DNA of 64,000 nucleotides from Closterium sp. NIES-65 (taxonomy: Eukaryota > Streptophyta > Zygnematophyceae > Desmidiales > Closteriaceae). Of the stretch, positions 7,801 through 35,296 are shown piece after piece. The notes under the pieces are model-generated. The model worked only from the letters and a program-made list of their open reading frames with translations. It did no database searches and was not told the origin of the DNA. Both the position numbers and the translations under genes were made by a program. Every line of letters begins with the position of its first letter. The first letter of the stretch is position 1. Location: NCBI GenBank assembly GCA_948144175.1, contig CANXME010002068.1, forward strand, positions 6,068,501 to 6,132,500, given 5' to 3'.

Positions 7801-10270
7801 ATGGCCACGATCACTGTCATACGTCAGAAGCAGCCGAGTGTGCAGGAGTCTCTCTCGCCCAGCAGCTTTGCTAGTGGGCTATCTGGTGGGGCAGCCCTGG
7901 TGGCGGAGCTAGCCGTGCTCGTCGGCAGAAGCCGCTTTCGCCACAGCAGCGTCGTGAGTGGGCTGTCCGGTGGGGTGCTACCACTGGAGGTACGTGTGAG
8001 TCTACTCTTGCTGGTAGTGCCGCTAGTAGACGCGGAGGTTCTGGGGGTGGACAGCATCAGCAGCAGCGTCTGCTGGAAACTCTCTCCCCGCAGCAGCTTT
8101 GTGAGTGGACTGTCCGGTGGGGCAGCCCCGGTGGTGGAGGATTTCGGGGTACTCGTACTGAGGGTGTAGAGGCACCTGATGGCGTAGAGGCTACTAGTCT
8201 TGGTGCGTGTGACTCAGCTAGCGCAGGGGCAGAGCCTGAGGAGGCCTTGCACACTTTTACACTAGAATCAGGTGCGTCTCGCTGCTTCTTCCGCGACGGC
8301 ACCATAGTCACACCGCTCACAGCCCCTGTCCCTGTCACAATGGCCGACCCCTCCAGGGGCCCGGTAGTCGCGCGTGGTGCTACTGTTCTCCCCTGTCCGG
8401 CGGCCCCTTCTGGCCTCCTCACAGGTCTCCACCTCCCCTCGTTCGCTACGAACTTGGTGGCTACCTCTTTCCTTCAGGACCAGTGGGTCACTGTCACCCA
8501 GCATGGAGGCAAGCTCGTGGCGATCTGTACGGACTCGCGCACTGGTGAGCACCTCGCCACGTTCACTCGGAGGCCTGGGTCTGGCCTGTACACACTGACC
8601 ACTGAATCTGCACTGGTAGTTGATTCAGGTCAGGTAGCTGTGTCAGTTGAGGTCGCTGCGTCTTGCTCGTGTCGTCTCCCCACGCACCAGACTCTCCTCT
8701 AGCACCACCGTCTTGACCATCCCTCCTTGTCTCTGGGCTTACCAGGTCCTTGCCCCTGCTCCTCAGGTCGCTTGCATCACCGTGCCTTCCCTGCGTCGAG
8801 GGGCGGCAGCGCGCCACTCCTCACTCCTCCTCATTTCCTCCGACCACAGCTCCTCTGCAGACCCTCCACATGGACGTGCGCGGTCCAGCCCGAGTCCCTG
8901 GACAGGGCGAAGAGCTCTACTTCTTACTAGTTGTAGACGACTACACGCGCTACATCACGGTCTTCCCCTTGCAGAGCAAGGCAAAGGTCCGCAGTGTCCT
9001 GATCCGCTAGATCCGTGCTGTCCATCGCCAGCTTAGTGCTTGGTTTCAGCACGACCTCCTGGTCCTGCAACTGCACTCTGATCGAGGTGGTGAATTTTCC
9101 TCCGGCCTCCTCAAGGAATTCTGTGGTGTTGAGAGCATCCGCCAGACGTTCACGCTTTCGGCCTCTCTAAAGTAGAATGGAGCGCCGCATTGGCTTGGTG
9201 ATGGAGGTTGCTCGCACCTCCATCGTCCATGTGGCTGCTCCCCATTTCCTGTGGCCGTTTGCGGTCCGATACGCTGCTGAGCAACTCAACCTCTGGCCTC
9301 GTGTCTCCCACCCGGAGACCTCTCCCACTTTGCGGTGGACGGGCGAGGTTGGTGATGCATCGCCATTTCGGGTCTAAGGTGCCCTTTCGCTTGTTCGCGA
9401 CCCCCCCGCGGGGAAGCTCTCTCCCCGCACTTTGCTGCGTCTTCCTTGGCTTCCCTACCGACGCCCCCCGCTGGAACTTTTACCACCGGGTTCTCGTCAT
9501 GTCCTCTCCTCCTAGGATGTCACTTTTGATGAGTCTGTCTGCTACTACGTCTCCACCCCCACCGCAGTTCCTCAGTGCCCCTCCTGCCTCTCGCACCAGT
9601 CTCTGACCCCCCCCCTCCGTAGCCCCACTCCCCCCGCAGGGTCCTGCTCCCTCAGGTGTGTCTCAAGTTGACCTGTCCCCCTTGGTTGAGCCAGTCGAGG
9701 TCTCCTTCGACACCTTTGGCCCAACTGAGGGGGGTGACCCGATTCCTGCTGTCACCGTGACCCCTCGCCGCTCCGCGCTCTTGGCGGTCCCTCCTGGGTT
9801 TCCGCCTCGACCGTCTTCAGCGCCATTGCAGCCTGTCGTTGTGGACTCTGGTACTGCAGGTGGTGGTGCCACTAGGGGTGGGGACACTAGGAGTGCTGGT
9901 TCAGGGGGTGCTGAGTGTCCTGTGGGTACAGGAGGTACTGGAGGTGCTGGTGCTGGTGGTCTTGGTACGAGTTGGCAGGAGGCTCTCTCGCCGGAGAGGC
10001 TTTGCGAGTGGGCTGTCCAGTTGGGCAGCCCTGGTGGTGGAGCTAGCCGTCTTCGAGTGGAAGGTACTGGGACTGCTGGAGCTAGAGGTGCTGGGACTGC
10101 TGGAGCTGGAGGTTCTGCTACTGGTGGTACTAGGGTTGCTAGTGCTGGTGGCATTGGTGCACGTCGGCAAAATACTCTCTCCCTGGAGTAGCTTCGCGAG
10201 TGAGCTGTACAGTGGGGCAGCCCTAATGGTGGAGCTAGCCGTGCTCGTATAGCTAGAGCTGGAGGTGCTG
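7801..10270 (+). pseudogene. Copia-B: gag-deleted, decayed Copia polyprotein
   Basis: It begins MATITV, like a Copia Gag start, but jumps at once to copies of the Gag C-terminal motif ESLSPQQL, so the capsid domain is missing. Protease follows at 8247 with ESGAS in place of DSGAS, losing the catalytic Asp. The zinc-finger and integrase core lie at 8700-9380 in several frames, with stops at 8701-8703 and 9008-9010 and more near 9170 and 9376. The Gly/Ala linker (9658-10200) also contains the ESLSP-like motif. Reverse transcriptase and RNase H are absent: the linker is cut at about 10270 by a non-coding repeat (family X). Clearly dead. Confidence 0.88.
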
Positions 10271-11061: not shown

Positions 11062-11376
11062 GCAGCAACTACTGCAGCAGCAGCTGTCCAAGTCACCACG
11101 GTCCCCCATGAAGAGAGTGACTTGGAAGAAAAAGCTGCTAAGTTTGGAGCAGGGGGAGGCATCACTGTTATGTGATGCTATCATTTGCATTCACGTCTGT
11201 CTGCCTCCCATCATGTGTTCGTGCGTTGCATGCGTGGTGTGAGCCTGTGCAAGAAATTGTGTTTTGTGTGGTTTGAATTTTCTGAATGTGTGTGAATGTT
11301 ATTTGGCTTGAGCAGATATCTGAAGTGACTCCTCTGCTCAAGAGCTTTCCGTCAAACCAAGTATCGCTTCAATCGG
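11062..11376. other. Unique-looking spacer before the Gypsy-1 element
   Basis: No gene, repeat or terminal motif recognised. The last four bases, TCGG (11373-11376), are repeated at 19503-19506 and look like the target-site duplication of the following element. Confidence 0.5.
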
Positions 11377-11787
11377 TGTCACCAAATACAGTGGTAAAGA
11401 ACAATATATTTGGTTGTACGCTATAGTTGGTGTAGTGAGGTGTAGGATTGGGGTTATGCAACTTTACAGAGGGGTTGTTGAGCTTCAAGGGAATGACGCG
11501 AAGTTGGTAGCATGGGGAACTGGGACATTGGGAAGAGCTACAAGCGCCTCGAGGAGCAGGGAATCTGCAGCAACCAGTAAGGCACATGGCGACTCGAACC
11601 CAACCCAAGGCCATGGAAATGGTCGTGACTCTGGGTAGGGAATAAAGCAGCCTAGCCTAGACACTAGAACCTGCTCTCTCGTTTTGTTTGCCTACTATAG
11701 TGGATTCAATTCACCGTTCTAAGGCTACGGCAGCTAGGTGATACGCCACTGAGGGCAGCCAGCTTGTGGGAGTAGGAATCTCTCACA
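11377..11787 (+). repeat. Gypsy-1 5' LTR (segment A1)
   Basis: 411 bp, starting TGTCACCAAATAC and ending atctctcaca. It matches 18968-19377 with a single substitution (c/t at about 11521). A primer-site-like TGGCGAC lies 21 bp further on, just before the Gag ATG at 11813, but the PBS is not certain. Promoter elements were not identified. Confidence 0.92.
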
Positions 11788-11812: not shown

Positions 11813-13836
11813 ATGGATTGCCACGATCAACATGTGCAGCGTACGTACTCACGGCGGGAACGATCTCCGTCGCGGAGGAGACGCTCGAGGGAGCGCGGGA
11901 GATCGCCGACGCGCTCGCCACGTCGGGCGGCGTACCGCGCGGATCCGGTGACGCCGACGGACGTGCGAAGGGAAGAAAGCGGGGAGGACCTGCGCGTCAG
12001 GTCAGAGCCGTGGAGGCGGCCGACGATCAGCAACCCGTGGAACCTGGCAGAAGGCCAACGCGGGACGGGTGGAAGGCGTGACAACGCCGACGACAACGGA
12101 TTGCCCACTGCGCGGGGCGGCGGAAGGCGCGAAAACGCCGACGACGACGGATCGCCCACTGCGCGGGGCGGCGGAAGGCGTGAAAACGCCGACGACGACG
12201 GATCGCCCACTGCGCGGGGCGGCGGAAGGCGTGAAAACGCCGACGACGACGGATCGCCCACTGTGCGGGGCGGCGGAAGGCGTGAAAACGCCGACGACGA
12301 CGGATCGCCCACTGCGCGGGGCGGCGGAAGGCGTGAAAACGCCGACGACGACGGATCGCCCACTGCGCGGGCCGGCGGAAGGTGTGAAAACGCCGACGAC
12401 GACGGATCGCCCACTGCGCGGGGCGGCGGAAGGTGTGAAAACGCCGACGACGACGGATCGCCCACTGCGCGGGCCGGCGGAAGGCGTGAAAACGCCGACG
12501 ACGACGGATCGCCCACTGCGGGGGCGGCGGAAGGCGTGACGCAGCCGACGAGGAGGAGTTCCCCACTACGCGGGGCGGCGGAAAGCGCGACATCGCCAAC
12601 GATGAGCAGGCTTTCCCTGTTGCGCGGGAAGGAGGAGGGCAAAGGTACAAGAGGAGGGATGAAAGGGAGCGAGCCCGACACGGAAAGGTGCGGGGGGAGG
12701 ACGAGGAGCACGGGAACGAGGAGTACTCACCTGCGGGACGGCAGGGAGAGGGAAAGAGAGCGTCAGCGGGTGTCTACCGCTCGCCTGAGCCGAGACCAGG
12801 ATATGACCGCCGACGGCGCATGGCGATGGGTGAAGGTCGGTGGGCCGAGCGGGAACAGCGGGAGGAGAGGTTGGACCATGAGGAGCGACGTCAGCAGAGC
12901 CCGCCTGAGTGGGAGCGGGTGTGCAACAGAGAAGGACGAGAAAGGGGAAGGCGATCACCGCACGGCTTCAGAGCAGAAGGAGGAGGTCGGCAGCGGAGGG
13001 AGCAAGAGTGGCATCGCCAGGAACGTTCACCTGTGCGGGGAAATGGACGTTGGGAGGATCAGGAAAGGTGCAGGAGACAGAGCGAAGACGACCAGAGGAA
13101 AGGTCGGAGTCCAAGTGGCACTAGGAGGCTATGGCAGCATGGAGAAGGATCTAGTGGGGCCAGGGCAGCTCGTGAGGGACTGGAGCGAGCACTGTACGGG
13201 ACAAGCGCAAGAAGCAGAGGAGACAAAGGAAAGCAGCGAGGGGCTGCTCTGTCAGATCGGGGAGGCTCGGGGAGTTGGGATTGGGGGAGATGGGGCGCAA
13301 CGGCAGCACCACGGGTGGAGGTGCCGGTGCGCTTCACAGGGAACGAGAACACAGGACCAAGCCTCAAGAACTACCTGATGCAGATCAGCAATGTGAAGTA
13401 TCGGTGCGATCGAAGCGGGATGGACCCCATAGACTTCTTCTTGAGCCTGCCAAACACACTCGGGGGGGAAGCGGAAACCCTGTATCGCATGAAGATGGGA
13501 GAGTGGTTGAGGAGGGCCGATGAAGATGAGGAGGACCCGACGGTGCTATTTCTGGACCGGCTGAGAAAGCAGTTTCCAGGGCACACAGCGGCGCGCATCA
13601 AAGAGTTTCAAGAGTTCAAGAGGAGGGACGAGGAATCTTTGCTAACGTACTACGGCCGGCTGATGAATCTAGCGGAGGACGTGGTGTGCACAGACAGCAG
13701 TATGGTCATTAGTAAATTCCTAAATGGGCTGGACAAGGGACTAGCAGGGGGACTGAGAATGCGGGTCTACGAGCTGGGAGCAGACGCGACACCTGAAGAG
13801 GTGTTTGAGCTAGCAGAGAGAGTGGAGCTGGCATAG
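11813..13836 (+). CDS. Gypsy-1 Gag: SR-like repeat domain plus capsid, one frameshift
   Basis: The ATG at 11813 opens a frame rich in Arg/Ser (RRERSPSRRRRSRERGRSP), reminiscent of SR proteins, followed by about nine tandem copies of a 17-residue unit (ENADDDGSPTARGGGRR). One base is missing at about 12519-12524 relative to the other repeat copies. Reading then continues in the next frame through an Arg/Glu-rich stretch into a capsid-like region (about 13320-13830), ending VELA and TAG at 13834-13836. The Gag role is structural: it would package element RNA. The deletion could be a true mutation or a sequencing error in a G run. The frame continues after the TAG into the zinc knuckles. Confidence 0.8.
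12070..12525 (+). repeat. 51-bp tandem repeat in gag (about nine units)
   Basis: The 51-bp unit contains gaaaacgccgacgacgacgg and encodes the 17-residue Gag repeat. Units differ by a few substitutions (Ala/Val, Arg/Cys, Gly/Ala), and the last unit has lost one base. The period is a multiple of three, so unit gain or loss keeps the frame. Confidence 0.92.
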
Positions 13837-15183
13837 AGAAAGTATGAGGTGTACCTGCCGCGGCCAACAGAGAGGAAGAATCCTGCTTGGGCTGCAGCAA
13901 TGATACCTGAGACGGGAGGAAGAGAAGAGAGCCGACAGGAAAGAGGAGCTGAGACACGCACCTGCCACCGATGCAAGCAGCCAGGGCATCTGATGAGAAA
14001 TTGCAGGAATTGCGACACCTGTGGGAAGCCAGGACACCGCCGAAGGGACTGCCCGGATGCACCCAGCTGCGAGGTGTGTGGGAAGCGGGGGCATAAGGGG
14101 AAGGACTGCTACCAACGCACAGGAGGGCCAAGGAGGACGCCAGAGGAGATAGAAGGGCAGATAGGGAGATTGCAAACGCAGCTGCAGGCACTGGGAGGGA
14201 AGAAGGAGAAAGAGGCAGGATTGTATGCAAGGGAAGAGGATGACGAAGCAGAGGTGATAGATGAGCCAGCGCTTGAGTACAATTTCATGGTGTTGCGCAG
14301 CCGAGAGGAGTTGGGCCTGCGCAGCGGGGGCAGGGATGGAAGAAAAGAGCAAGTGGTGAGGGAGAGGAGCAGGCCAAAGAGAGCTCCAGAGGAGAAGGGT
14401 AGAGGGGAAGAAGAGCCAGCCAGGCATCCCAAGGAACGGCTAGCCAGTCAAGCGACGGTGCTGGTGGCAGGAGCGGGAACAGTGGCAGTGGGAGGGGAAG
14501 TGGCAAGAACTGCGATCATAGATACGGGGGCACAGAGTGTGATGTTGGGGAGGCGGTTAGCAGAGAAGCTGGGGCTGAACGGGCTGGGACAGCACATAAA
14601 ACGAGGAATGCTAGTAATGACAGCAGAGGGAGGTGAGCCTAAGTCCCTGCCGTGCACCAAGACTCCAGTGGAGATAGTCCTGATGCCGGAGAAGGAGGAG
14701 CAGACTAGTATAAGGCTGCAGTGTGGGATTTCAGACTCAGAAGATTTTGATGTACTGCTAGGCACAGACCTGATTTGGGGAGTAGGGATGACCATCTGCA
14801 CGTGGAAAGAAAAGGTAAAGTTTCGGAAGCAGTATTGGGAGCGGGGGAGCAAGACGGGAGAGCTGCCTGTGTCATTCACTAAGCAGGAGCCAAAGAGGGC
14901 GTACACGGGCGAGCAGATGGGGACCAGGGAGAGAGGGAGAGCAGGGATCGTGGGAAAAGCAGCAGCAGTCAACGCATGGCAAGAGCCGATAAAGCTGGTC
15001 GAGCTGTTCGGGGGAATAGGAGCAGGGCTGGCAGCAGTGCTCAAGGCAGGAGTGGCCGTGAGGGAATGGGTATACGTGGAAAATAACGAACAGGTGAGGA
15101 AGATGGCAGAGCACCATACGAGAAAGCTGCAGCAAGAGTACCCCGAGCTACTAGAAGAAGCAGTGATAGTGAAGGCAATGTGA
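13837..15183 (+). CDS. Gypsy-1 Pol part 1: zinc knuckles, aspartic protease, N-terminal half of methyltransferase
   Basis: This segment continues in the same frame after the TAG at 13834. It carries three CCHC knuckles (CHRCKQPGHLMRNC, CDTCGKPGHRRRDC, CEVCGKRGHKGKDC; about 13963-14110), a Lys/Glu-rich spacer, and a retroviral-type aspartic protease with catalytic IIDTGAQS (Asp codon at 14521) and the flap-side FDVLLGTDLI. From 14992 it enters the methyltransferase fold with LVELFGGIGAG, the S-adenosylmethionine-binding motif I, followed by an acidic motif II (YVENNEQ). It stops at a TGA (15181-15183) in the middle of that domain; the downstream half follows at once in the same frame. Without read-through or correction the methyltransferase is split. 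Confidence 0.88.
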   Translation, partial: RKYEVYLPRPTERKNPAWAAAMIPETGGREESRQERGAETRTCHRCKQPGHLMRNCRNCDTCGKPGHRRRDCPDAPSCEVCGKRGHKGKDCYQRTGGPRRTPEEIEGQIGRLQTQLQALGGKKEKEAGLYAREEDDEAEVIDEPALEYNFMVLRSREELGLRSGGRDGRKEQVVRERSRPKRAPEEKGRGEEEPARHPKERLASQATVLVAGAGTVAVGGEVARTAIIDTGAQSVMLGRRLAEKLGLNGLGQHIKRGMLVMTAEGGEPKSLPCTKTPVEIVLMPEKEEQTSIRLQCGISDSEDFDVLLGTDLIWGVGMTICTWKEKVKFRKQYWERGSKTGELPVSFTKQEPKRAYTGEQMGTRERGRAGIVGKAAAVNAWQEPIKLVELFGGIGAGLAAVLKAGVAVREWVYVENNEQVRKMAEHHTRKLQQEYPELLEEAVIVKAM

Positions 15184-15957
15184 GGGACAGTGACTGATGT
15201 AAGAAGCATCACGCGGGAGGTGGTGAGGAGCTGGGGGCATGTGGACCTGCTGGTGGCCGGATGGGAGTGTCAGGCTGTGTCAAGGGCAGGGAAAGGAAAG
15301 GGATTAGGAGATCCAAGAGGGGCGCTGCTGGTGAACTTGCTGTGCATCATAGACTGGATTAAGGAAGGACAAGAGAAGGTGGTATACCTGCTGGAGCACC
15401 TGGATCTGGAAGGGGACTGCAGGGAGCCTGTCAAGAAAGTGCGGGAGTTAGTGACAAGGAAGCTGGGGAAGGGGGTAAGATGTGATGCGGCCAGGCTGGG
15501 GGCACGAGCTCATCGTGTCCGGCGATACTGGCAGAACGTGGTCACAGATGAGCAACTGCAGCAGGAGCTGGATGGAATACGCAGAGACTGGAGCAGGACC
15601 GTGCGAGAGATTTTAGAGCCCGGTAGGACAGCGGCACCTGTTAGGAAAGGCAGGCATGAGACACAATGCCCATGCAACAAAGTGGGGGCAGAGCGCAGGG
15701 CGTGGCCGACATTAGTGGGGTATGAAGGGGCAGCTGGGTTCAGAGAGGAAGACGGGCTGCCAGGAGAAGGCATGGTGTATGACTGCCGTTCGAAGAGATG
15801 GGAGGAGCCAAGTGCGTTAGAAAGGGAATTAGCAATGGGGTATGGAGAGGAGGCCACCAAGGCAGCAGGGGTGACAGAAAAGGAGAGAAGAAGAGCATTA
15901 GGACAGGCCATGGACGGAGAAGTTATGCAGTGGTTACTGAGGCGGATGTGGAGAGGG
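14992..15957 (+). other. C5 cytosine DNA methyltransferase domain within Gypsy-1 pol
   Basis: Motifs appear in canonical order. Motif I is LVELFGGIGAG (14995 on). A TDVRSITREVVRSWG segment is followed by motif IV as DLLVAGWECQAVSRAGKG, in which the nucleophilic Cys (codon 15268-15270) is kept although the usual Pro before it is Glu. Motif VI is VVYLLEHLD with the conserved Glu, motif VIII ARAHRVRRYWQNV with the conserved Arg, and the motif X region is ALERELAMGYG with ALGQAMDGEVMQWLL. The DVRS/EWG-like stretch and AHR.R(Y/F)W are most like DNMT3/DRM enzymes. The expected activity is methyl transfer from S-adenosylmethionine to C5 of cytosine. Activity of this copy is doubtful because of the internal TGA. 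Confidence 0.9.
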
Positions 15958-18852
15958 CTGGTGCTGGAAGAGGAAGGAGGAGAAGAGAGTGTGGGGACAA
16001 GGGTGAAAAAGGTGGGGGCATGGGTATGCATGGCAGCCAAGGAAGAGCCCGCATGGGTCGTGGGGAATGCAATGAGTGAGAAAGGAAAAGAGGCAATGCA
16101 GGAGGTGCTGGCGAGGTATAGGCACGCCTTCGCGTTTACCATGCAGGAGCTGGGGAAGTGCACTGTGAAGGAGATGGAGCTGAAGCTGGTGACGGATGAG
16201 CCGGTATTCCAGAGGAAGCGGAGGATGACCCCTGGAGATGAGGATGTCTGCAAGGAGAAATGTAAGGAGCTGATGGAAGCAGGGTTGATACAGAGGTCAG
16301 AATCAGAGTATGCAACACCGACGGTAGTAGCTGCCCGAAAGGACCTGCTGGGGGAGGTGCTGAGCAGACGCATGTGTGGGGATTATCGGGCACTGAACAA
16401 GGTGACAGTGCCTGACCGCTACCCAATGCCCACAGCTGAAGATATCTTTGACCGGCTGGGGGCAGGTGAGGTCTTTAGCACGCTAGACTTAAGACAGGGG
16501 TTCAACCAGATTAGGATAAGGAAAGAGGACGTGCGGAAGACAGCGTTCCATGGAGCAGATGGCCTATACGAGTGGCTGTTCATGCCATTCGGGCTGCGAA
16601 ACGCGTCTGCCATCTTTCAGAGAGTAATGGACAGCGTGCTGAGGGGGCTGGAGTGCGCGGCGTGTTACATAGATGATGTAGTAATTTTCAGCCGGACGGA
16701 AGAAGAGCATGTGAGAGACGTGGAGCAGACACTGAAGGCGTTGGCAGCAGCTGGGCTGACATGCCATCCGAAGAAGTGTAGGTGGGGAGAGGCGACAGTG
16801 CAGTACCTGGGCTATGAGGTTAGGGGCGGGCAGCTAGGGATCCAGCAGGCGAAGATTGAGGTGCTGAGCAGGCTGCAGCAGCCAAAGGACCGAAGCGGAC
16901 TAAGGGCGGTACTGGGATTTCTGAGCTATTACCGCAGGTTCGTCCCGAATTTCAGCAAGCGGGTTGCACCACTGAACGGGCTGCTGAAGGAGGACAGGAA
17001 GTGGGAATGGGGGATGGAGAAGGAAGCAGCATTGAAAGATCTGATGGAAGCGGTGCAGACAGCAACAATTCTGCAGCTACCCAAGACTGACAAGCCCTTT
17101 TGCCTATACACCGACTGGAGCAGCCAAGGCATGGGGGCAATCCTGTGCCAGGAGTTAGATGGGGAGGAGAGGGTTGTGGCATATGCAAGCAGGAGCTGCA
17201 GCCCAGCGGAAGCCAAGTACAGCTCTTACCACGGAGAGGGGCTGGCAGCCGTGTGGGCTGTAAAACACTTCAGGGTATACCTGCAGGGAAGGAAGTTCAC
17301 ACTGATCACAGACCATCAACCCCTGCAATGGCTGATGACCCACCAAGGGCTGACAGGGAGGAACGCGCGTTGGGCCGTGACGCTGCAAGAATATGACTTC
17401 AAGATACGTCACAGGCCGGGAAAGACTCTGCAGCACGTGGACGGGCTCTCAAGGAACCCGCCGGCAGCAGAGCCAGTACACACGCTGATGTTGCTGGCAA
17501 GGCAAGGGGAAGAGGCAGCAGCAGGGAAGCAAAAGGGGCCAAAGGATATTTGGGAAGATCCAGCAGCACTGCGATGGATTCAGGGAGAAACTGATGAGGA
17601 GGAGCAGGTCTCTGACAGGGTCAGGGCAAGGGGGCACCATTACCGATGGTACCAGGGACAGCTGCAGTTACAGACGGCGGATGGATGGAAGCTGGTACCT
17701 GCACCACAAGACAGGGAGGGAGTGATTAAGGAGGTGCACAGGAAGCTGGGGCACTTCGGGCACGAGCGCACGACGGAACTGTTGAAGACCGGCTGGTGGT
17801 GGGAGGGTATGAGAAGGCAGGTCAGGGAATGGGTCAGCGGATGCGAAGGTTGTCAGAGGAGCAAGGCCAGCCTAGCACAGGCGAAGCAGGAGCTGCAGTC
17901 GCTGCCAATAAGAGGGTTAGGGTTCAGGTGGTCTCTCGACATAGCTGGTGAACTGCCGCTGAGTAGGGGAGGCAAGCGGTATATACTGCTAATGGTGGAA
18001 CACGCGAGCAAGTGGGTAGAGGTGTGTGCATTGCCGAGCAAAGATTCCAGGCACGTGGCAAAGGCATTCAAGGGACAGGTCCTGTGCAGGTTTGGGGCAC
18101 CAGGGGAAGTGCTCACAGATCAGGGGACGGAATTTAGAGGGGAATTTCAGGCACTGCTGGACGAGGCAAGGGTGACACACAGGCTGACATCTAGGTACCA
18201 CCCACAGAGCGATGGGTTGACTGAGCGCCTGGTGCAAACCCTGAAACGGAACCTGAGGGCATATGGAGAGAAGCGCAAGAGAGACTGGGATGAGGAGTTG
18301 GACTGGATTGCGGCGGGGTACCGGTTTGGGAAGCAGGCCTCCCTGAAAGACTATTCCCCGTATAGCATGCTGTTTGGGAAGGAGCCAATCCTGCCAGTGG
18401 GAGCACCGAGGGTGCTGACAGATGTGGTGCAAGTCACAGGAGCAGAGCAGTGGGTGGCACTAGCGGAGGCACGGGCACGATACATGCGGGAGATGCTCCC
18501 TGCGGCCCTGGAAAACCTGCACACGGCGCAGTTGAGGGACGCACACAGGTATGAGCAGCGGCAGCAGCAGGGTGGCAGGAAGGCCAGACCAGCGGTGATG
18601 GAAGGACAAGAGGTGTACCTGCGCAGGGCAAAGAGGGATACGCTGGACGTGGGGCTAGGAACGCAGAGATGGAAGGTGAAGGAGGTGAGAGGGTCTGGAG
18701 TGCTGGTGCTGGAGAACGACAAGGGGGAAAAGATGGTGGATCATCAGACCAATGCTGCGGCGGTGAATGGACAAGGGCCTCAGCGAGAGGGTCCTGTGAC
18801 CCGCGCACGGGCAGCCCGAGACCGGGCACAGGAGGGGGCAGGTAGTGGCTGA
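15184..18852 (+). CDS. Gypsy-1 Pol part 2: C-terminal methyltransferase, reverse transcriptase, RNase H, integrase
   Basis: This runs 1,222 codons in frame with the upstream segment. After the methyltransferase C-terminal half (to about 15957) comes reverse transcriptase (about 16190-16830; LDLRQGFNQIRI and the catalytic YIDD at about 16666). RNase H (about 17095-17460) has the FCLYTDWS and ITDHQPL motifs. The integrase has an HHCC zinc domain (about 17740-17870) and a DDE core (SLDIAGEL, LTDQGTEF, DGLTERL). The C-terminus ends GAGSG at 18852 with a GPY/F-like region but no chromodomain. These enzymes copy element RNA into DNA and insert it. Only the missing start (preceding TGA) speaks against function. 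Confidence 0.93.
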   Translation, partial: GTVTDVRSITREVVRSWGHVDLLVAGWECQAVSRAGKGKGLGDPRGALLVNLLCIIDWIKEGQEKVVYLLEHLDLEGDCREPVKKVRELVTRKLGKGVRCDAARLGARAHRVRRYWQNVVTDEQLQQELDGIRRDWSRTVREILEPGRTAAPVRKGRHETQCPCNKVGAERRAWPTLVGYEGAAGFREEDGLPGEGMVYDCRSKRWEEPSALERELAMGYGEEATKAAGVTEKERRRALGQAMDGEVMQWLLRRMWRGLVLEEEGGEESVGTRVKKVGAWVCMAAKEEPAWVVGNAMSEKGKEAMQEVLARYRHAFAFTMQELGKCTVKEMELKLVTDEPVFQRKRRMTPGDEDVCKEKCKELMEAGLIQRSESEYATPTVVAARKDLLGEVLSRRMCGDYRALNKVTVPDRYPMPTAEDIFDRLGAGEVFSTLDLRQGFNQIRIRKEDVRKTAFHGADGLYEWLFMPFGLRNASAIFQRVMDSVLRGLECAACYIDDVVIFSRTEEEHVRDVEQTLKALAAAGLTCHPKKCRWGEATVQYLGYEVRGGQLGIQQAKIEVLSRLQQPKDRSGLRAVLGFLSYYRRFVPNFSKRVAPLNGLLKEDRKWEWGMEKEAALKDLMEAVQTATILQLPKTDKPFCLYTDWSSQGMGAILCQELDGEERVVAYASRSCSPAEAKYSSYHGEGLAAVWAVKHFRVYLQGRKFTLITDHQPLQWLMTHQGLTGRNARWAVTLQEYDFKIRHRPGKTLQHVDGLSRNPPAAEPVHTLMLLARQGEEAAAGKQKGPKDIWEDPAALRWIQGETDEEEQVSDRVRARGHHYRWYQGQLQLQTADGWKLVPAPQDREGVIKEVHRKLGHFGHERTTELLKTGWWWEGMRRQVREWVSGCEGCQRSKASLAQAKQELQSLPIRGLGFRWSLDIAGELPLSRGGKRYILLMVEHASKWVEVCALPSKDSRHVAKAFKGQVLCRFGAPGEVLTDQGTEFRGEFQALLDEARVTHRLTSRYHPQSDGLTERLVQTLKRNLRAYGEKRKRDWDEELDWIAAGYRFGKQASLKDYSPYSMLFGKEPILPVGAPRVLTDVVQVTGAEQWVALAEARARYMREMLPAALENLHTAQLRDAHRYEQRQQQGGRKARPAVMEGQEVYLRRAKRDTLDVGLGTQRWKVKEVRGSGVLVLENDKGEKMVDHQTNAAAVNGQGPQREGPVTRARAARDRAQEGAGSG

Positions 18853-18965
18853 GGCCGAGGCACGCAAAGTCTGCAGGCAGGCAGGAAAGTGTAGAAAGAA
18901 GAAGGGTAAGAGGACAAGGGAGGAAGCAGCCAAGGGGTGAGGTGAGAAAGAGGAGATCTCCGACA
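18841..18965 (+). repeat. Gypsy-1 segment B1 with polypurine tract
   Basis: 125 bp beginning ggtagtggctgaggcc, overlapping the last pol codons, and containing the purine run ggggtgaggtgagaaagagg expected before a 3' LTR. It is repeated with two substitutions at 19378-19502, on the far side of the LTR copy. Confidence 0.88.
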
Positions 18966-18967
18966 GC

Positions 18968-19377
18968 TGTCACCAAATACAGTGGTAAAGAACAATATAT
19001 TTGGTTGTACGCTATAGTTGGTGTAGTGAGGTGTAGGATTGGGGTTATGCAACTTTACAGAGGGGTTGTTGAGCTTCAAGGGAATGACGCGAAGTTGGTA
19101 GCATGGGGAATTGGGACATTGGGAAGAGCTACAAGCGCCTCGAGGAGCAGGGAATCTGCAGCAACCAGTAAGGCACATGGCGACTCGAACCCAACCCAAG
19201 GCCATGGAAATGGTCGTGACTCTGGGTAGGGAATAAAGCAGCCTAGCCTAGACACTAGAACCTGCTCTCTCGTTTTGTTTGCCTACTATAGTGGATTCAA
19301 TTCACCGTTCTAAGGCTACGGCAGCTAGGTGATACGCCACTGAGGGCAGCCAGCTTGTGGGAGTAGGAATCTCTCAC
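18968..19377 (+). repeat. Gypsy-1 3' LTR copy (segment A2)
   Basis: 410 bp nearly identical to A1 (11377-11787): one substitution, plus absence of the terminal A. Unlike a normal 3' LTR it is not followed by the flanking target site but by a second copy of segment B. Confidence 0.9.
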
Positions 19378-19502
19378 GGTAGTGGCTGAGGCCGAGGCAC
19401 GCAAAGTCTGCAGGCAGGCAGGGAAGTGCAGAAAGAAGAAGGGTAAGAGGACAAGGGAGGAAGCAGCCAAGGGGTGAGGTGAGAAAGAGGAGATCTCCGA
19501 CA
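19378..19502 (+). repeat. Gypsy-1 segment B2, true right end of the element
   Basis: Second copy of segment B, ending CTCCGACA and followed by TCGG (19503-19506), which equals the four bases before the left end (the shared word is ATCGG if one base is ambiguous). TG...CA ends plus this duplication argue that the integrated molecule ended here. Confidence 0.75.
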
Positions 19503-19506
19503 TCGG

Positions 19507-26681: not shown

Positions 26682-28043
26682 TCAAAGCTGGGTGGCGTGA
26701 GATACACCCTGCTTGACAAGATAGTCCTTGAGAGCACGGCGTGCGTTGCCCATATCAGCTTCTGCAACCCAACTGTCCTCAGTGGGGTCGTATCCCTTCC
26801 AACGTATCAGGAACTCGAGAGTCTTGCCACCGCGGCGCCGATGAGAGAGAACGCGCTCGATCTCGTACTCGGGTTCATCCTGTATGAGAACAGGTGGTGG
26901 TGGCGGTAGTTGCCGTCCCTGGAACTGTTGGTTGGGGTCCTTGTAGGGCTTCAGTAGCTGGACATGGAAAGCGTTGTGAAGCTTCCATGTATCTGGTATG
27001 CGCAAGCGGAATGTAACTGGTGTCACCTGTGCCTCAATGAGAAAAGGACCACAGAAGCAAGGCCGGAGTTTGGATGGGAGGTGAGACAGGTTCAAGTTGC
27101 GCGTGTCAAGAAGCACCTGATCTCCGACTGCTATTGAGTGATCACGTCGCTGACGATCGGCATACTGCTTCTGGGAGTTTTGCATCGTTGTGAGACGTCA
27201 CTGAGTCTTCTCCCATAGCTGCTGCATGGTGGTGACGAAGTCATGTGCGGCTTGGACGTATGCCGGTGTAGTTGGCTGCTGTGGTGTGAGTGGTTCCCGT
27301 CCGTAACACAGGAAGAAAGGAGTTTTCCCTGTGGCCGCATGTGATGCGTTGTTGTAAGCGAACTCTAGGGTTGGTAACTGTGTGTCCCAGTGGCTAACGT
27401 CGTCCTTGCAAGCTGTGCGCAGTAACTGTTCAACCACTTGATTGAGTCGCTCTGTCTGTCCGTCAGTCTGGGGGTGGTATGCTGAAGACATTGCAAGCTT
27501 TGTCCCCAACAGTCCCATGAGCTCCTTCCAGAACTTACTCGTGAATTTGGGGTCTCTGTCTGAGATGAGTGTAGCGGGGATGCCGTGGATGGTGATGATG
27601 CGGTCGAAGAAGAGTCGAGCAGTTGCTTCAGCTGTAGCTGTGGCGTTGGTCGGTATGAAGTGACCCATTTTGGAGAACTTATCGATCACCACGAGGATGG
27701 AATCATGTCCCCGTGAGGTCGAAGGAAGCCCTGTGATGAAGTCGAGGCTAACGACCTGCCATGGCTGCTCCGGTACGGGTAGAGGCTGAAGTAACCCTGC
27801 TTTTTTCTGCTTGCTGCTCTTCATCGGCTGGCACGTGTCGCAAGAGGTGACGAACTGCTGCACGTCTGCTGCCATCCCGGGCCAGTAGTAATACTTCGCT
27901 ATCCCTGCTAACGTCTTGTTGCTCCCGAAATGTCCCGCGTAAGGTACGTCGTGAAACTCCTCCAATAGGATCTGCCGTAGCGGGGCGTAATTCGGTACCC
28001 AAATCTTTCCTGAACCCTTCCTTACAGCTAAGTCTTTCTCCCA
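26682..28043 (-). CDS. Gypsy-2 integrase and chromodomain, with in-frame TGA
   Basis: Reading continues in frame after the TAG at 28044-28046. The integrase has an HHCC zinc domain (GHFGSNKTL ... CDTCQPMK) and a DDE core with SLDFITGLP, SDRDPKFTSKFW and HPQTDGQTERLNQ. A TGA at 27198-27200 interrupts between the core and the C-terminal part. The C-terminus then has the GPF-type block (RPCFCGPFLIEA) and a chromodomain (YEIERVLSHRRRGG ... FLIRWKGYDPTEDSWV; about 26700-26875), which in chromoviruses is thought to direct integration to particular chromatin. The frame stays open apart from the stop. Confidence 0.9.
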
Positions 28044-30027
28044 CTATAATAGCTTCTTGGTCTGTGCTGTAGCAATCTCTGCGTCCACAGAGTACCCATG
28101 TTGGAATAGACCCTTGAGCAGAGGGTTCATCCCGTCGAGCTGGATGCCTGCTACATGTCCGGGGCGGCTCAACGCGTCTGCCTTGTTGTGTAGCCCGGGC
28201 TTGTAGACGATGTCGTAGTGGAAGTGAGTTTCCAGGAAGTCCACCCACCGTACCTGTCGTCGTGAGAGTGTCGGCTGTGACTTCAGGTATTTGAGACTGC
28301 AGTGGTCAGTATAGACTGTAGTCTTGGCTCCCTCTAGGTAACACCTCCACGCTTTGAAGGCTATGACTATCGCTAAGGCTTCCTTGTTGTGAATGGGGTA
28401 GTTTAGTTCTGCTCCGTGTAGCTTCTTACTGAGGTAGGCGATGGGCTGCAAACCGCGTCCGTGATCCTGCATTAGTACTGCTCCGACTGCTTGGTCACTA
28501 GCGTCTGCTTCCACCACGTAGTCCTTGTCTGGATCCGGCAAGATGAGTACTGGCGCTATAGTCAGTGCTGTCTGTAGCTGCTCCATGGCTTGCTGATGAA
28601 GGGTATCCCATTTGTAGGGCGTATCCTTTTTCAGTAGGTTGGTCAGTGGCGCTGCTATCTTAGCGTACTGCAGCACGAACCTGTTGTAGTAGTTGGCGAA
28701 GCCTAGGAACTGCTGTAACTCCTTCACGTTCTCTGGTACTTTCCACTTCTCGACGGCTTCGATCTTCCGTGGGTCCACGTGTACGCCCTCGGCACTCACC
28801 ATGTGCCCGAGAAACTGCACCTTCTTCAGGGCGAAGTCGCTCTTTGACAGCTTCATGTAGAACTTGTTTTTCCGCAGGATCTCGAACACCTTCCGCAGAT
28901 GCTCCACGTGCTCCTTCATGTTCTTGGAGTAGATGAGAATGTCGTCCAGGTACACCACCACGCACTCGTCCTGCAGGGGTCGTAAGATGTGATTCATCTC
29001 CGCCTGAAACGTTGCTGGTGCGTTGCAGAGTCCGAACGGCATCACCAAGTATTCGTAGGAGCCGTATCTGGTACGGAACGCTGTCTTGTGGACGGAGTTG
29101 TCTGCCATCTTGATCTGCCAGTAGCTCGATCGTAGGTCCAACTTCGAAAATACTGTTGCTCCACGCAGTTGATCGAGTAGGTCGTCTATGTGCGGTATAG
29201 GATATTTGTTTTTGACTGTCTGTTTGTTCAGTGCGCGGTAGTCGATGCACATCCGTAGACTGCCGTCTGGTTTTGGAGTGAAGAGAACTGGTGCGCCGTA
29301 GGGAGAGGTGGATGGGCGGATCAGTTGTCTGTCCAGTAGATACTCTATTTGTTTTTTCATGACTGTCAGTTCAGTCGGACTCAGTCGGTATGGTGCACGT
29401 GAGACGGGTTTCGCACCTGGTTCCTCCACGATCTCGTGCTCGTGGGTGCGTGCTAGAGGTACGCCTGCAGGTAGGTCGTCAGGCATTATATCTTTGTACT
29501 GCTCCAAGACCTCTTTCACTGCTGCAGGTAGCTCGGAACTCGGCTTCTCCTCCTCTGCTGCTGCCATAACCAGTGCTAGGTAACCCGTGTTACTCTTGTT
29601 CACCGTCTGTTCGAACCGTGCCAGTGTTGTTTCAGGTACGTCCCCTGTATCCGTCCAGCTTCGCAGTGCTATCCCCTTCCCATTGTTGTAGATGCACACC
29701 TTGCTGTTGACCCAATCGATCTCGGGGTTGAACTGCTTCAGGAAATCTCGCCCCAAGATAAAATCTAATCCTTTGATGTTGGTGACTGGTAGCTTCGGCT
29801 TCCACCTCAACGCACCTATATGCAGTTGCAGTGATGCTTCGCCGTGGATAGGAAGCTTCGTACCGTCCACCATGGTTGCTGAAAACTGGGTCTCTTCCGC
29901 CTTCTCTCCAATTTTCTCCAATGCTCCGCGGTCACACACCGAGTGAGATGCACCGCTGTCCACCAGTGCCTGGAGGCGTCGCCCATTGCATAACACCTCG
30001 AGGAGTAGTGGTTTCTGCTGTGCTGAC
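28044..30027 (-). CDS. Gypsy-2 protease, reverse transcriptase, RNase H
   Basis: The minus-strand frame opens after a TAG at 30028-30030. Protease has [12 protein letters not shown] with the catalytic Asp; the LILGRDFL-type motif reads [11 protein letters not shown]. Reverse transcriptase shows [30 protein letters not shown] and catalytic [11 protein letters not shown]. RNase H starts near [16 protein letters not shown] and includes [11 protein letters not shown]. It ends KKLL and TAG at 28044-28046, with the integrase following in the same frame. Expected functions are polyprotein cleavage and cDNA synthesis. Domain order (reverse transcriptase before integrase) is that of Gypsy. Confidence 0.93.
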
Positions 30028-30694: not shown

Positions 30695-33080
30695 TCAAGA
30701 AGTGAGCAAGTGAGACAAGACAGGCACAAGACCCAGCTGCGTGCAGCAACGCTGATGATCACAAGGCGCAAGTGCCTTGGTGAAGACATCAGCAGTGTTG
30801 GCCTCAGAGGCCACGTACGCAAGTCGCAACTGTCCACGCTGCTGCAGCTCACGAGCAAGAAAGTAGCGGAGAGCAATGTGCTTTGTCCTGTGCTCCAGTC
30901 GCTGCTCTCGACACAAGGCCAGCATGGCCTTGTTGTCTACGTACAGGACTGGAGGAGAACGAGGCGGCTCTCCAAGGTCGGTCAGCAGGTAGGTGAGCCA
31001 GCGAAGCTCCTGAGCAGCCATAGCCCCGGCGTAGATCTCAGCCTCACAACTGGAGCCGAGAACAGAAGACGAGCGAGTAGCCCGCCACGAGACAGAGCCG
31101 GAACCAAGGCTGAAGGTGTAACCCTGTGACGACCGCTGTGTAGCCTGGTCGTCAGCCCAAGAAGCGTCCGCGTGCCCAGTGAGGACCACTGGACTGCGCC
31201 CTCCAAGCACTAGCCCCATGCCCGACGTACTGCACAAGTAGCGCAACACCCTCTTCGCTGCAGCCATGTGCTCTGGTCGGTGTCTCCCAGGAGCAACATA
31301 GCGTGCGAGAATGCTGAGAGGGTATGCAAGGTCAGGTCGTGTGCAGGTCATCAGGTACATGAGGCAGCCAACAAGCTCTGCATACGGGCCACTCGACTCT
31401 ACGGACTCATCCGAAGGCAGAGCTGAGAGCGAGTGGCGAGTAGGCAGAGGAGTGGCCTGAGGCGAGGAGTACGTGAAGCCGAAGCGCTGAAGGACCTGCT
31501 GCACCATGTGTGACTGAGTCAGGGTAATGGTGCGGCGTGCTCTGTCCCGGGTGATCTGCAAGCCAAGGTAGCTGCGCAGCTCACCCAGGTCAGTGCACGT
31601 GTGTCTCTTCTGCAGCTCGGACTTCACGTAAGCGAGTCCAGCAGTGTCCGCTGTGGCAAAGACCAAGTCGTCGACGTACACGAGGATGTAGAACGGCGGC
31701 AGAGAGGTGTCGGTGCGCAGAAACAGCGACGGGTCGGCAGTAGAAGGAGCAAACCCAAGTGCCGCAAGCGTAGTCCTCAGTGTGTCGTGCCACTCACGTG
31801 GCGCCTGGCGGAGACCGTAGACTGGACGCCGGAGATTCCACTGGGTACCAGGAGGGAAAGACCCAGTGAAGCCAGGTGGGCGACGCAGCCAGATCTCCTC
31901 GTGCAGGCTGCCCTGCAAGAAAGCTGTGCTGAAGTCGAGAGAGTGCAGCTCGTAGTCACGGTGAGCAGCAACGTGCAGCAGTACCCGAAGAGTGGTCATC
32001 TTCGGGGTGGGGGAGAAGGTCTGAAAGTAGTCAACCCCCTGCCGCTGACTGAAGCCACGAGCCACGTAACGCGCCTTGAAGACAGGCGGAGAACCCGGCG
32101 GCCGCTTCACCCTGAAAATCCACATGCCACTGACGATGTTCGCCCCAGGAGGGGGAACCGCGTTGACGTAGGTGCCTGTGGACTTCCAGGAAGCCATCTC
32201 TGCATCCATAGCTGCCTGCCACTGAGAGGAGTAGGGACCCTCTATCGCCTCCGCGTAAGAGCGCGGAGTCGGGATGTCTAGTGCATCCGGGTCTCCCTCA
32301 GGGGCTAGCAGTACAGACGCGAGATGAGGTGAAGCGGCGGCCAGACACTGGAACTCCTCCTGCCTGTCCTCAAGGACGTCCGTGCCAAGGGCACACTCAC
32401 CCCCGACGGACGGAGGACAGGCAGACTCAGACTCAGCAACAAGACTAGCAGCGTAGTCTAGGCGACAGCGCGTAGCAAAGTCGACGAGCTCAGTGACAAG
32501 GGCAGACGCAGCAGAAGACTCGAAAGAAGGGTCAGTGACAGCTGTAGCAAGGAGACGCGTGACAGTAGGACTGACAGCACGAAGAGAGTCCGACTCCGGG
32601 TCGGCAAGAGCAGGAAGAGAGGAAGCAGGAGGAGAAGGCAAAGGGGCACGCAGAGGAGCAGTGGACGGACGCAGAGACATCCGGTGCGTGCCAGGGACAG
32701 GAGGAGGACGCTGACGCGAACCGCGACCACTAGCGCGCGCAGTACGAACAGGCGACGCAAGACGAGACGCAGGCTCACGACGCTCAGTAAGACCTCCAGT
32801 CGGACCAGCGTCGGGAGAAGGAGCAGGCAAAGGGGAGGCAGGCTGTAGCTGTGACTGTGACGAGAAAGGCTGTGGACCCTCTAAGGGAGGAGGAGGAGGA
32901 CCAGGAGAAGGTGTAAGACCAAGAGCCTGCTGCAGGAGCGGAACGAAGTACGGCCGGGGCCGCGCGGCGACGCCACAAACAGCAGGGACAGCACCAGTAC
33001 CCCCAGCAGGAGTACCCGCTCCAGCAGCACCTCCAGTAGCTCCCGAACCTCCAGCAGCACCAGCAGGAGCACCGCCAGTC
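30695..33080 (-). CDS. Copia-2 reverse transcriptase and RNase H
   Basis: The intact frame runs from the frameshift near 33080 in the linker to the stop at 30695 (terminal SHLLTS). It contains the N-terminal block SYAEAIEGPYSSQWQAAMDA, RVKRPPGSPPVFKARYVARG, the catalytic VYVDDLVFAT, YLGLQITRDRARRTITLTQ and ELVGCLMYLMTCTRPDLAY. RNase H has SSSVLGSSCEAEIYAGAMA and VDNKAMLALCREQRLEHRTK. It makes the cDNA and removes the RNA strand. This is the best preserved reverse transcriptase of the Gly/Ala-linker Copia family in the window. Confidence 0.95.
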
Positions 33081-35296
33081 GGACCTCAGCGGCAGTCTCA
33101 GCGTCAACACCCTCAGCAGCACCAGCTCCAGGAGAACCCTCAGACCCAGCAGCTCCAGCACCCACAGTACGAGCACCGCCGGGACGCTCGGCAGTAGTAC
33201 CCTCTGCAGCCGAAGAACCGCCAGCACCAGCAGCACGCCTCCAGCGTCTGGCAAACCACTCACGTAGCTCCTGAGGGGAGAGTGGCTCACGGCGAGACGA
33301 AGCACCTCCAGGCGGAGCACCCCCAGTCTCAGCACCCCCAGGCTCAGCACCCCCAGGCTCAGCACCCCCAGGCTCAGTACCCCCACGCACAGTACCCACA
33401 GGCTCAGCACCTCCAGGCACAGCACCCCCAGGCTCAGCACCCCCAGGCTCAGCACCCCCAGGCTCAGCACCCCCAGGCACAGCACCCCCAGGCTCAGCAC
33501 CTCCAGACTCCGCACCCCCAGGCTCAGCTCCCACAGGCGTAGCACCTCCAGTCTCAGCACCCCCAGGCTCAGCTCCTGCAGCCGCACCAGAGTCACCAGT
33601 GACCTCGACAGGCTCGACCGCGTCTACCTGGGACACACCTGAAGGGGCAGGACCCTGAGAGGGGAGGGGGTCTACCGGGGGGGGACCTGGTACCAAGAAG
33701 AGCGGGGGAGGGGGGAGGGACGGAGTGCGGTAGGGGAAGAGGCGGTAGTAGGGTACCGACTCGTCGAACGTGACGTCCTGAGAGGACAGAACACGTCGAG
33801 AGGTGGGGTGGTAGAACTGCCACCCGGGGGCGTCGGGGGGGAACCCCAGGAAGACGCAGGGAGCAGCGCGAGGGGACAGCTTGTCCGCAGACAAGTCGCG
33901 GACAAACGCCCGAGATCCCCAGACCCGGAACGCCGACGCATCGCCAACCTTCCCCGTCCACAGCAGCGCTGGGGAGGTCTCCGGCCTGGAGACCCTGGGG
34001 TGGAGGTTGATCTGATGCGCTGCGTACCTGACCGCAAACGGCCACAGAAAATGGGGGGCAGCCGCATGCATCATGGACGTACGAGCGACGTCCATGACCA
34101 TGCCAATGCGGCGCTCTGCAATCCCATTCTGCTGCGGGGAGTCCGGAAGCGTGAAGGTCTGGCGGATGCCTCGCGCACGACAGTAGGCACGCAGAAGGCC
34201 AGAGGAGAACTCTCCGCCTCTGTCCGAGTGCAGACGCAACACAGGAAAGTCCGAGCCAAAGCTCTGCCTGAGCTGGAGACGAGCTGCGCGGATCCAGTCG
34301 ATCAGCACCTCAGTGACATCACCCTTGCTGCGCAAGGGGAAGACTGTGGTGTAACGCGAGTAGTCGTCAACCACCAGCAGGAAGTAGCGCTCGTGACCGA
34401 GTCCACGGACGCGGGCAGGGCCCCACACGTCCATGTGAAGCGTCTGCAACGGAGCCTCTGTCGGAGGAAACTGGGAGGAGTGAGGGGCAGCACGCTGGCG
34501 CCCCTCGACACAGGGGACACAGGCAGGGCCAGGGCCCTGAGGAAGGGGAGGTAGAGACCGGGGGAGACCAGACACAAGAAGACGGGAGGCCATGCCTCTG
34601 AGCCTAAGCAGAGAGGGGTGGCCAAGACGGTGGTGCCAGAGGAGGGTCTCGTGAGACAGACGGCGACACGAACAGGGGGCAGACTCAGGACCAGACCTGG
34701 ACGCTGCAGCAAACACCTGACCAGACGAAGGCACGCTACCAGACTCAGCACCTGGAGGAGAAGCAGTGGTCAGTGTGTACAGGCTCGACCCTGGCTGACG
34801 TGTAAACGTAGCCAGGTGACGACCCGTGCTAGCCTCCGTGCAGTGCGTCACTCGCTGACTAGCAGGGGTGAACTGGTGAACTCCCCCATCCTGTAGGTCA
34901 GCACCACTCACCAAGTTCGTAGAGAACGAGGGGAGGTAGAGACCAGACAGGGTGCCAGAGGGAGCCGCCGGACACGGGAGGACCGTGGAGAAGCGAGCCA
35001 GGACAGGACCCCTAGAGGGGTCAGCCAGGGAAACCGCAACTGGCCGACTAAGTGGCGTAAGTGTGGTGCGGTCCCGAAAGAAAGAGCGAGACGCTCCAGA
35101 GTCAAGAGTGAAGGTGTGGGAGGCCGAAGCCGACGCAGTACCTGAGAGCGCAGACGCACTAGTACCTGAGAGAGCAGTCTCACGAGTACCTGGGAGTACA
35201 GACGCACTGGCACCTAGAGCAGAAGCCTCACCGGTACCTGGAGCAGCAGTACCAATGCCCGGGTCGGGCGAGAAACACCGGTAACAGTCACCCTCC
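32881..35296 (-). CDS. Copia-2 protease, zinc finger and integrase plus linker start
   Basis: The frame is open from the shift near 35297. It carries a protease motif TLDSGASRSFFRD, the pre-integrase zinc domain (HHRLGHPSL ... CVPCVEGRQ) and the integrase core with HMDVWGP, LHSDRGGEFSS and PQQNGIAERRIG (D, D, E). The LSSQDVTFDESVPYY block marks the integrase C-terminus. A proline-rich hinge leads to the Gly/Ala/Glu repeat linker, where the frame is lost near 33080. The remaining 200 bases to 32881 are read in the wrong frame. Confidence 0.92.
33090..33600 (-). repeat. Copia-2 linker: 15-bp tandem repeat encoding GAEPG-type pentapeptides
   Basis: About 20 copies of a 15-bp unit (cctgggggtgctgag on the minus strand) encode runs of Gly-Ala-Glu-Pro-Gly and variants between integrase and reverse transcriptase. 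The antisense frame reads as His-Pro-Gln-Ala-Gln repeats, which I regard as a shadow. Confidence 0.9.

Follow-up and report, generated by a model that had tools for sequence, protein, structure and literature searches.

A DNMT3-type cytosine methyltransferase within the Pol frame of a high-copy Ty3/Gypsy-type element of Closterium bounded by split direct repeats

As a rule, retrotransposons are themselves targeted by DNA methylation; an element that carries its own methyltransferase (MTase) in Pol reverses that relation. What would such an element do with the enzyme? The question is raised by a Ty3/Gypsy-type element in a stretch of 64,000 nucleotides from Closterium sp. NIES-65 (the window; positions 6,068,501 to 6,132,500 of CANXME010002068.1), where the copy lies on contig C1770 of the 874-Mb assembly. 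On balance, we read the copy as a broken member of a high-copy family, whose DNMT3-type MTase is predicted to be packaged with the reverse transcriptase (RT) and would most likely methylate the element's own new DNA.

An earlier note on this DNA had proposed a C5 cytosine MTase between the aspartic protease (PR) and the RT. This was confirmed: window positions 14980-15960 encode a DNMT3-type C5 MTase, in frame between the PR and RT of a Ty3/Gypsy element.

14980..15960, + strand: DNMT3-type C5 cytosine MTase domain (Pfam, solved-structure and family-profile searches, motif reading)
14995, 15265-15270, 15394, 15514 and 15901, + strand: motif I, Glu-Cys of motif IV, Glu of motif VI, Arg of motif VIII and motif X of the MTase (motif reading)
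15181..15183, + strand: in-frame stop TGA dividing the MTase of the window copy (end of the open reading frame, asterisk in the translation)

The motifs, which we take to be I, IV (with the Cys), VI, VIII and X, follow one another in unrearranged order. Their reading in a single frame between DTGAQS (14521) and YIDD (16666) in the earlier note holds, but the domain is not unbroken, as the TGA divides it. A profile built from relatives matched 14980-15960 in a single frame; near relatives of the window copy sat in that profile, so its score is not independent. The part downstream of the stop matched Pfam DNA_methylase PF00145 (1.4e-5, 25.1 bits; cut-off 22) and a PHROGs DNA-methyltransferase family (3e-12), and as a single sequence it found DNMT3A/3B as the best solved structures (3e-5). 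Thus the search of 14992-15957 against C5 models that the note had called for gave significant matches. The PF00145 match together with the motif IV Cys places the domain among the C5 cytosine DNA MTases, with Glu-Cys in motif IV instead of Pro-Cys.

Against solved structures, the MTase family profile scored 2e-22 for DNMT3A, 2e-12 for 4onj, 5e-10 for HhaI and 7e-10 for DRM2. Chain 4onj carries only the label 'DNA methyltransferase' and is presumably a DRM. Enzymes of the DRM type have a circularly rearranged motif order. Of the initial suggestion that the domain is closest to DNMT3/DRM, only the first half survives: both the best sequence match and the modeled fold are DNMT3, and a DRM-like identity is ruled out because the motif order is unrearranged and DNMT3A scores far above DRM2. 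The domain differs from vertebrate DNMT3A/3B, with about 20% identity to the catalytic domain, Glu-Cys in place of the vertebrate Pro-Cys, and no ADD or PWWP domain among the Pfam matches of three polyproteins. A phage or bacterial enzyme as the nearest source was also considered, since PHROGs families and 297 phage records match the domain. It was rejected on the scores for DNMT3A and HhaI given above, and a phage source is further disfavored by the viral-contig relatives, which are distant (23-50% identity in the best segment) and all Pro-Cys (39/39 among the matches listed).

The other coding features of the window copy are as follows.

11966..12628, + strand: 51-nt (17-aa) tandem array in the N-terminal gag region (repeat search)
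13963..14109, + strand: three CCHC zinc knuckles, nucleocapsid (Pfam PF00098, 1.2e-10, three stretches; coordinates from the translation)
14482..14769, + strand: aspartic protease, DTGAQS at 14521 (Pfam PF13650, 6.4e-7)
16216..16845, + strand: reverse transcriptase, YIDD at 16666 (Pfam, profile, motif reading)
17089..17394, + strand: RNase H (PF17917, 9.1e-36)
17707..18204, + strand: integrase, H2C2 zinc-binding domain and DDE core (PF17921, 3.6e-17; PF00665, 4.2e-14)

The order on the + strand is therefore zinc knuckles, PR, MTase, RT, RNase H (RH) and integrase (INT). The PR-RT-RH-INT order, a Gypsy-type RT, the RNase H and the DDE integrase are those of Ty3/Gypsy elements. A DIRS-type element would have a tyrosine recombinase replacing the DDE integrase; here the PF00665 core is present, and no recombinase family was found among the Pfam matches. 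The window copy could not make an intact polyprotein, because the in-frame stop splits its MTase over two open reading frames (ORFs; 13849-15183 and 15190-18852) and the gag part is spread over two frames. A 51-nt array was also seen in the gag of L036, a copy of another sub-family, with a sequence unlike that of the window array.

A genome search with the 257-aa downstream part of the MTase turned up 148 scored matches among 1,310 candidates, with 60-100% identity and several sub-families. Of the 148, 38 fall in frames that stay open for 2,000 aa or more and have no stop within the match, some of these being assembly duplicates. Three copies from different sub-families, L036, L037 and L038, have one uninterrupted frame each (2,491, 2,321 and 2,375 aa) that holds knuckles, PR, MTase, RT, RNase H and INT; their MTases are 62%, 78% and 89% identical to that of L003, respectively. 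The insert is thus not confined to one rearranged copy, the finding that would have spoken against the earlier proposal. The ratio of nonsynonymous to synonymous divergence (dN/dS) among 10 representative copies was 0.071 (MTase; 41 of 45 pairs), 0.108 (PR; 35 of 45), 0.083 (linker; 41 of 45) and 0.029 (RT; 41 of 45), counting the pairs with dS > 0.05. The MTase is under purifying selection, indicating that it is kept by selection. That it is a useless passenger, as the stop in the window copy might suggest, is therefore very improbable: this view is contradicted by the dN/dS value, by the catalytic Cys retained in 64/64 retroelement rows of the MTase alignment, and by a deep MTase clade with a largely congruent RT tree.

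To whom else does the MTase belong? Three protein searches returned relatives from Closterium sp. NIES-53, NIES-54, NIES-65, NIES-67 and Naga37s-1, from the liverwort Calypogeia fissa (gene model P0068) and from environmental records. In the first search, 13 of 14 matches were named Closterium, and P0001 from NIES-53 is nearly identical to L037. P0068 carries a protease and an MTase with GWECQ on a 66.6-Mb contig, and would extend MTase-bearing elements to land plants. A retroelement-type MTase was also seen on a 2.4-kb contig of an Obscuribacterales metagenome-assembled genome (P0039), which is probably a mis-binned eukaryotic fragment.

The first MTase tree held 74 rows out of 128 domain-bearing sequences: 5 outgroup rows, together with the sequences that cover 200 or more model positions and span no more than 480 aa. 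A second tree was also made without P0027 and P0070 (long branches) and without P0004, P0006, P0019, P0020 and P0069 (no motif IV). In the second tree, the 62 retroelement MTase rows formed one clade apart from human DNMT3A (1 row), phage (4) and bacterial (5) rows, with support 100/99, and the 31 Closterium rows formed one clade in the 74-row tree. The RTs of 15 MTase-bearing elements also formed one clade (support 100/99) against Ty3 and the MTase-free chromovirus of the window. The latter is a Gypsy element at 26682-29996 on the - strand, whose C-terminus looks chromodomain-like by eye. The MTase and RT trees are largely congruent. A single capture of the MTase is favored by these trees, but not proven, because the RT tree has just two MTase-free rows; it includes no liverwort RT.

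As to whether the capture is the one already known in a charophyte or an independent one, which had been left open, the trees give part of the answer: the Closterium, liverwort and environmental rows share one clade, in a tree that does not include the Klebsormidium nitens element. Independent capture by the Closterium elements finds slight support in that no match named Klebsormidium appeared in the three protein searches, with many matches nameless, scoring confined to roughly the top 8,000 candidates in two of the searches, and proteins of about 700-1,280 aa falling outside the length windows. We consider it doubtful, as both elements are of the Gypsy kind, carry a DNMT3-type domain at a shared place within the Pol ORF and have DIRS-like repeats, according to excerpts of de Mendoza et al. 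(2018, PMC5890265), to which all statements from that paper here refer.

Two architectures were found among the relatives. In the first, the MTase lies between PR and RT (Closterium, P0021-P0023), and PR-MTase without RT was seen in P0026, P0027 and P0068. In the second, it lies between RNase H and INT; P0024 and P0025 show this in full, with a PHD finger, and others in part (RNase H-MTase in P0049, with a G-patch, and in P0066; MTase-INT in P0051). P0049 and P0066 had no Pfam MTase match, their MTase being detected by profile only. All five proteins of the second architecture fall within one starred sub-clade of 20 rows in the 74-row tree.

The residue before the catalytic Cys distinguishes most of these enzymes. 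To our knowledge, the Pro of the motif IV Pro-Cys is near-invariant in the C5 MTase family. In the 64 retroelement rows, this position is Glu in 50, Pro in 12, Asp in 1 and Ser in 1, which confirms the unusual Pro-to-Glu change noticed in the window copy and shows that most of the family shares it. Pro was present in 5/5 outgroup rows, as in the viral-contig relatives counted above. The fewest changes between Pro and non-Pro were 4 on the whole MTase tree and 3 counting retroelement rows only. This pattern could mean that the Glu-Cys enzymes have a changed chemistry or substrate (RNA, an RNA-DNA hybrid, or binding without catalysis) and make no ordinary 5-methylcytosine (5mC) in double-stranded DNA. 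We regard this as unlikely, since the Cys, the Glu of motif VI and the Arg of motif VIII are kept, the modeled fold is that of DNMT3, and elements related to these but bearing the canonical Pro-Cys also persist among environmental sequences. With natural Pro-Cys homologues beside it in one clade, the Glu-Cys site offers a natural experiment on the chemistry of C5 MTases.

The ends of the element were mapped from its repeats.

11373..11376: 4-bp target-site duplication TCGG, left copy
11377..11786, + strand: terminal repeat A1, starts TGTC (409/410 identical to A2)
18841..18965, + strand: internal repeat B1, ends GACA, followed by GC (98.4% to B2)
18968..19377, + strand: repeat A2 (repeat searches)
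19378..19502, + strand: terminal repeat B2, ends GACA, right end of the element (98.4% to B1)
19503..19506: 4-bp target-site duplication TCGG, right copy

The layout is A1-ORF-B1-A2-B2 with ends TGTC...GACA. Identical long terminal repeats (LTRs) as both element ends were not found; the split direct repeats A1...B1-A2-B2 stand in their place. Classic LTRs of 300-410 nt, taken from the first repeat searches, were rejected because no target duplication lies at those ends; one was seen once the B repeats were included. The split-repeat map was present in 8/13 copies examined, among them C332 with a partial A match only. No full map was obtained in the other 5/13: C532 showed partial A only, C1666 and C1672 nothing, and C287 and C741 tandem repeats only. 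The eight mapped copies represent about six independent insertions, because C73 shares flanks with C1923:136602 and C2251 with C1639. Clear 4-bp target duplications were found in three insertions, TCGG (window), AGAG (C2400) and AAAT (C73/C1923). CCAT at C1305 is uninformative because the same 12-mer stands on both sides, and no target duplication could be called at C2251/C1639. Some insertions have identical or near-identical repeats. L036 lies in an exact tandem of 7,911-bp element units (at 361-2089 and 8272-10000), which looks as if it came from unit circles or recombination.

Split direct repeats in the layout A1-ORF-B1-A2-B2 are known from PAT, Ngaro and DIRS-group elements, and DIRS elements are not known to have target duplications. 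The present family shares this layout and differs from those elements in its DDE integrase, its TGTC...GACA ends and its 4-bp target duplications; in DIRS elements the enzyme is a tyrosine recombinase (PMC5890265). The combination of split direct repeats and a DDE integrase raises the separate question of how the element ends are restored. The B1-GC-A2 junction holds copies of both element ends, from which reverse transcription could restore the ends without classic LTRs. The K. nitens element, too, has DIRS-like repeats with Gypsy domains (Fig. 4 legend, PMC5890265), so split direct repeats may be a mark of the whole MTase-bearing Gypsy lineage. We tentatively suggest one ancient Gypsy lineage in streptophyte algae, a liverwort and environmental eukaryotes, in which DNMT3 would have been captured once, the LTRs would have become split direct repeats, and the MTase would have moved once within Pol (from PR-MT-RT to RH-MT-INT, some with PHD or G-patch). 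The change from Pro-Cys to Glu-Cys would then serve to methylate an unusual substrate, such as nascent complementary DNA (cDNA) or an RNA-DNA hybrid.

What, then, is methylated? RT, integrase and the MTase share one polyprotein, for which reason we infer that the MTase is packaged in the particle that makes the cDNA. There it could mark the cDNA during or after reverse transcription, before or at integration. A daughter copy would thus be born methylated, and would therefore resemble host chromatin and keep its expression within what the host tolerates. Methylation of the element's own cDNA is the most likely role that we can infer for the enzyme. A trace of cytosine methylation was sought in synonymous C/T differences between 13 disjoint pairs of close copies of the family. 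These were found at 48/1389 CG, 35/2331 CHG and 52/5707 CHH sites (odds ratio of CG vs CHH 3.9, p 1e-10; CHG vs CHH 1.7, p 0.02). Deamination of 5mC at CG would produce such a CG excess, and host methylation would explain it as well as self-methylation does.

The same CG-biased pattern over the copies, together with the high copy number, is also compatible with an MTase that acts in trans on sister copies or competing elements (copy-number control, superinfection exclusion) and not on its own cDNA; an antiviral role of retrotransposon accessory domains has been proposed (excerpts of PMC6338049). Such action seems rather improbable to us, as the MTase lies inside Pol in a single frame, which ties it to particle and cDNA, and no result here points to nuclear action.

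Several observations weigh against self-methylation as the role of the domain. The CG signature is equally expected from methylation by the host. Transversions at all codon positions are also about twice as frequent at CG as at CHH sites (26/3890 vs 55/16100), so part of the CG excess is not specific to C/T. The observed/expected CpG ratio of the element (0.72) is near those of two other elements in the window, the chromovirus (0.81) and a Copia element (0.69); Copia-type pol ORFs, assigned by eye and with GGAEPGGA-like repeats, lie at 30695-34914 on the - strand. With Glu replacing Pro next to the catalytic Cys, DNA methylation may be altered or lost altogether. The window copy is itself broken, and the MTase of the intact L036 scores 20.4 bits in Pfam, under the curated cut-off of 22, as its PR likewise falls under the Pfam cut-off; the MTase of P0024 also scores under that of PF00145. 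Moreover, for KnitGypsy-Dnmt3, the K. nitens element and the closest relative in print, an assay in yeast showed no methylation, an outcome that its authors held inconclusive (PMC5890265).

A literature search combining Closterium, DNA methyltransferase and retrotransposon returned no paper from the library searched, and excerpts of PMC10952607, PMC13419823, PMC11096116, PMC10407611 and PMC2774666 contain nothing on such elements in Closterium. As far as our results show, several things are new: the large family in Closterium, its relatives in a liverwort and in environmental records, the second architecture, an active site with Glu-Cys, and a split-repeat map set out explicitly for an element that has a DDE integrase and duplicates 4 bp of its target. 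Because the family is large, with many open copies and some insertions with identical or near-identical repeats, an alga related to land plants now allows the role of such enzymes to be tested.

Elements bearing a DNMT are known from dinoflagellates and Klebsormidium (de Mendoza et al. 2018, PMC5890265) and are mentioned again in excerpts of PMC12344493; the comparable capture in a charophyte that the earlier note mentioned corresponds to KnitGypsy-Dnmt3, described in 2018. Like the window family, KnitGypsy-Dnmt3 has a Gypsy-type Pol, a DNMT3-related domain in the polyprotein, purifying selection and DIRS-like repeats; its DNMT3-related domain is intronless. The window family agrees with that kind of element, a DNMT3-type domain in a Gypsy Pol ORF with Ka/Ks < 0.2. 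It belongs to another host lineage, and the comparison is one by description, covering domain content, selection and the type of repeat structure. K. nitens has fewer copies than Symbiodinium, and the Closterium genome gave the 148 scored matches reported above. SymbioDIRS-Dnmt3 of dinoflagellates, for whose DIRS group an idea similar to self-methylation has been put forward, produced de novo CG methylation in yeast (PMC5890265). It shares with the window family a DNMT3-type domain beside RT in Pol, whereas its tyrosine recombinase makes it another class of retrotransposon than the Closterium family with its DDE integrase.
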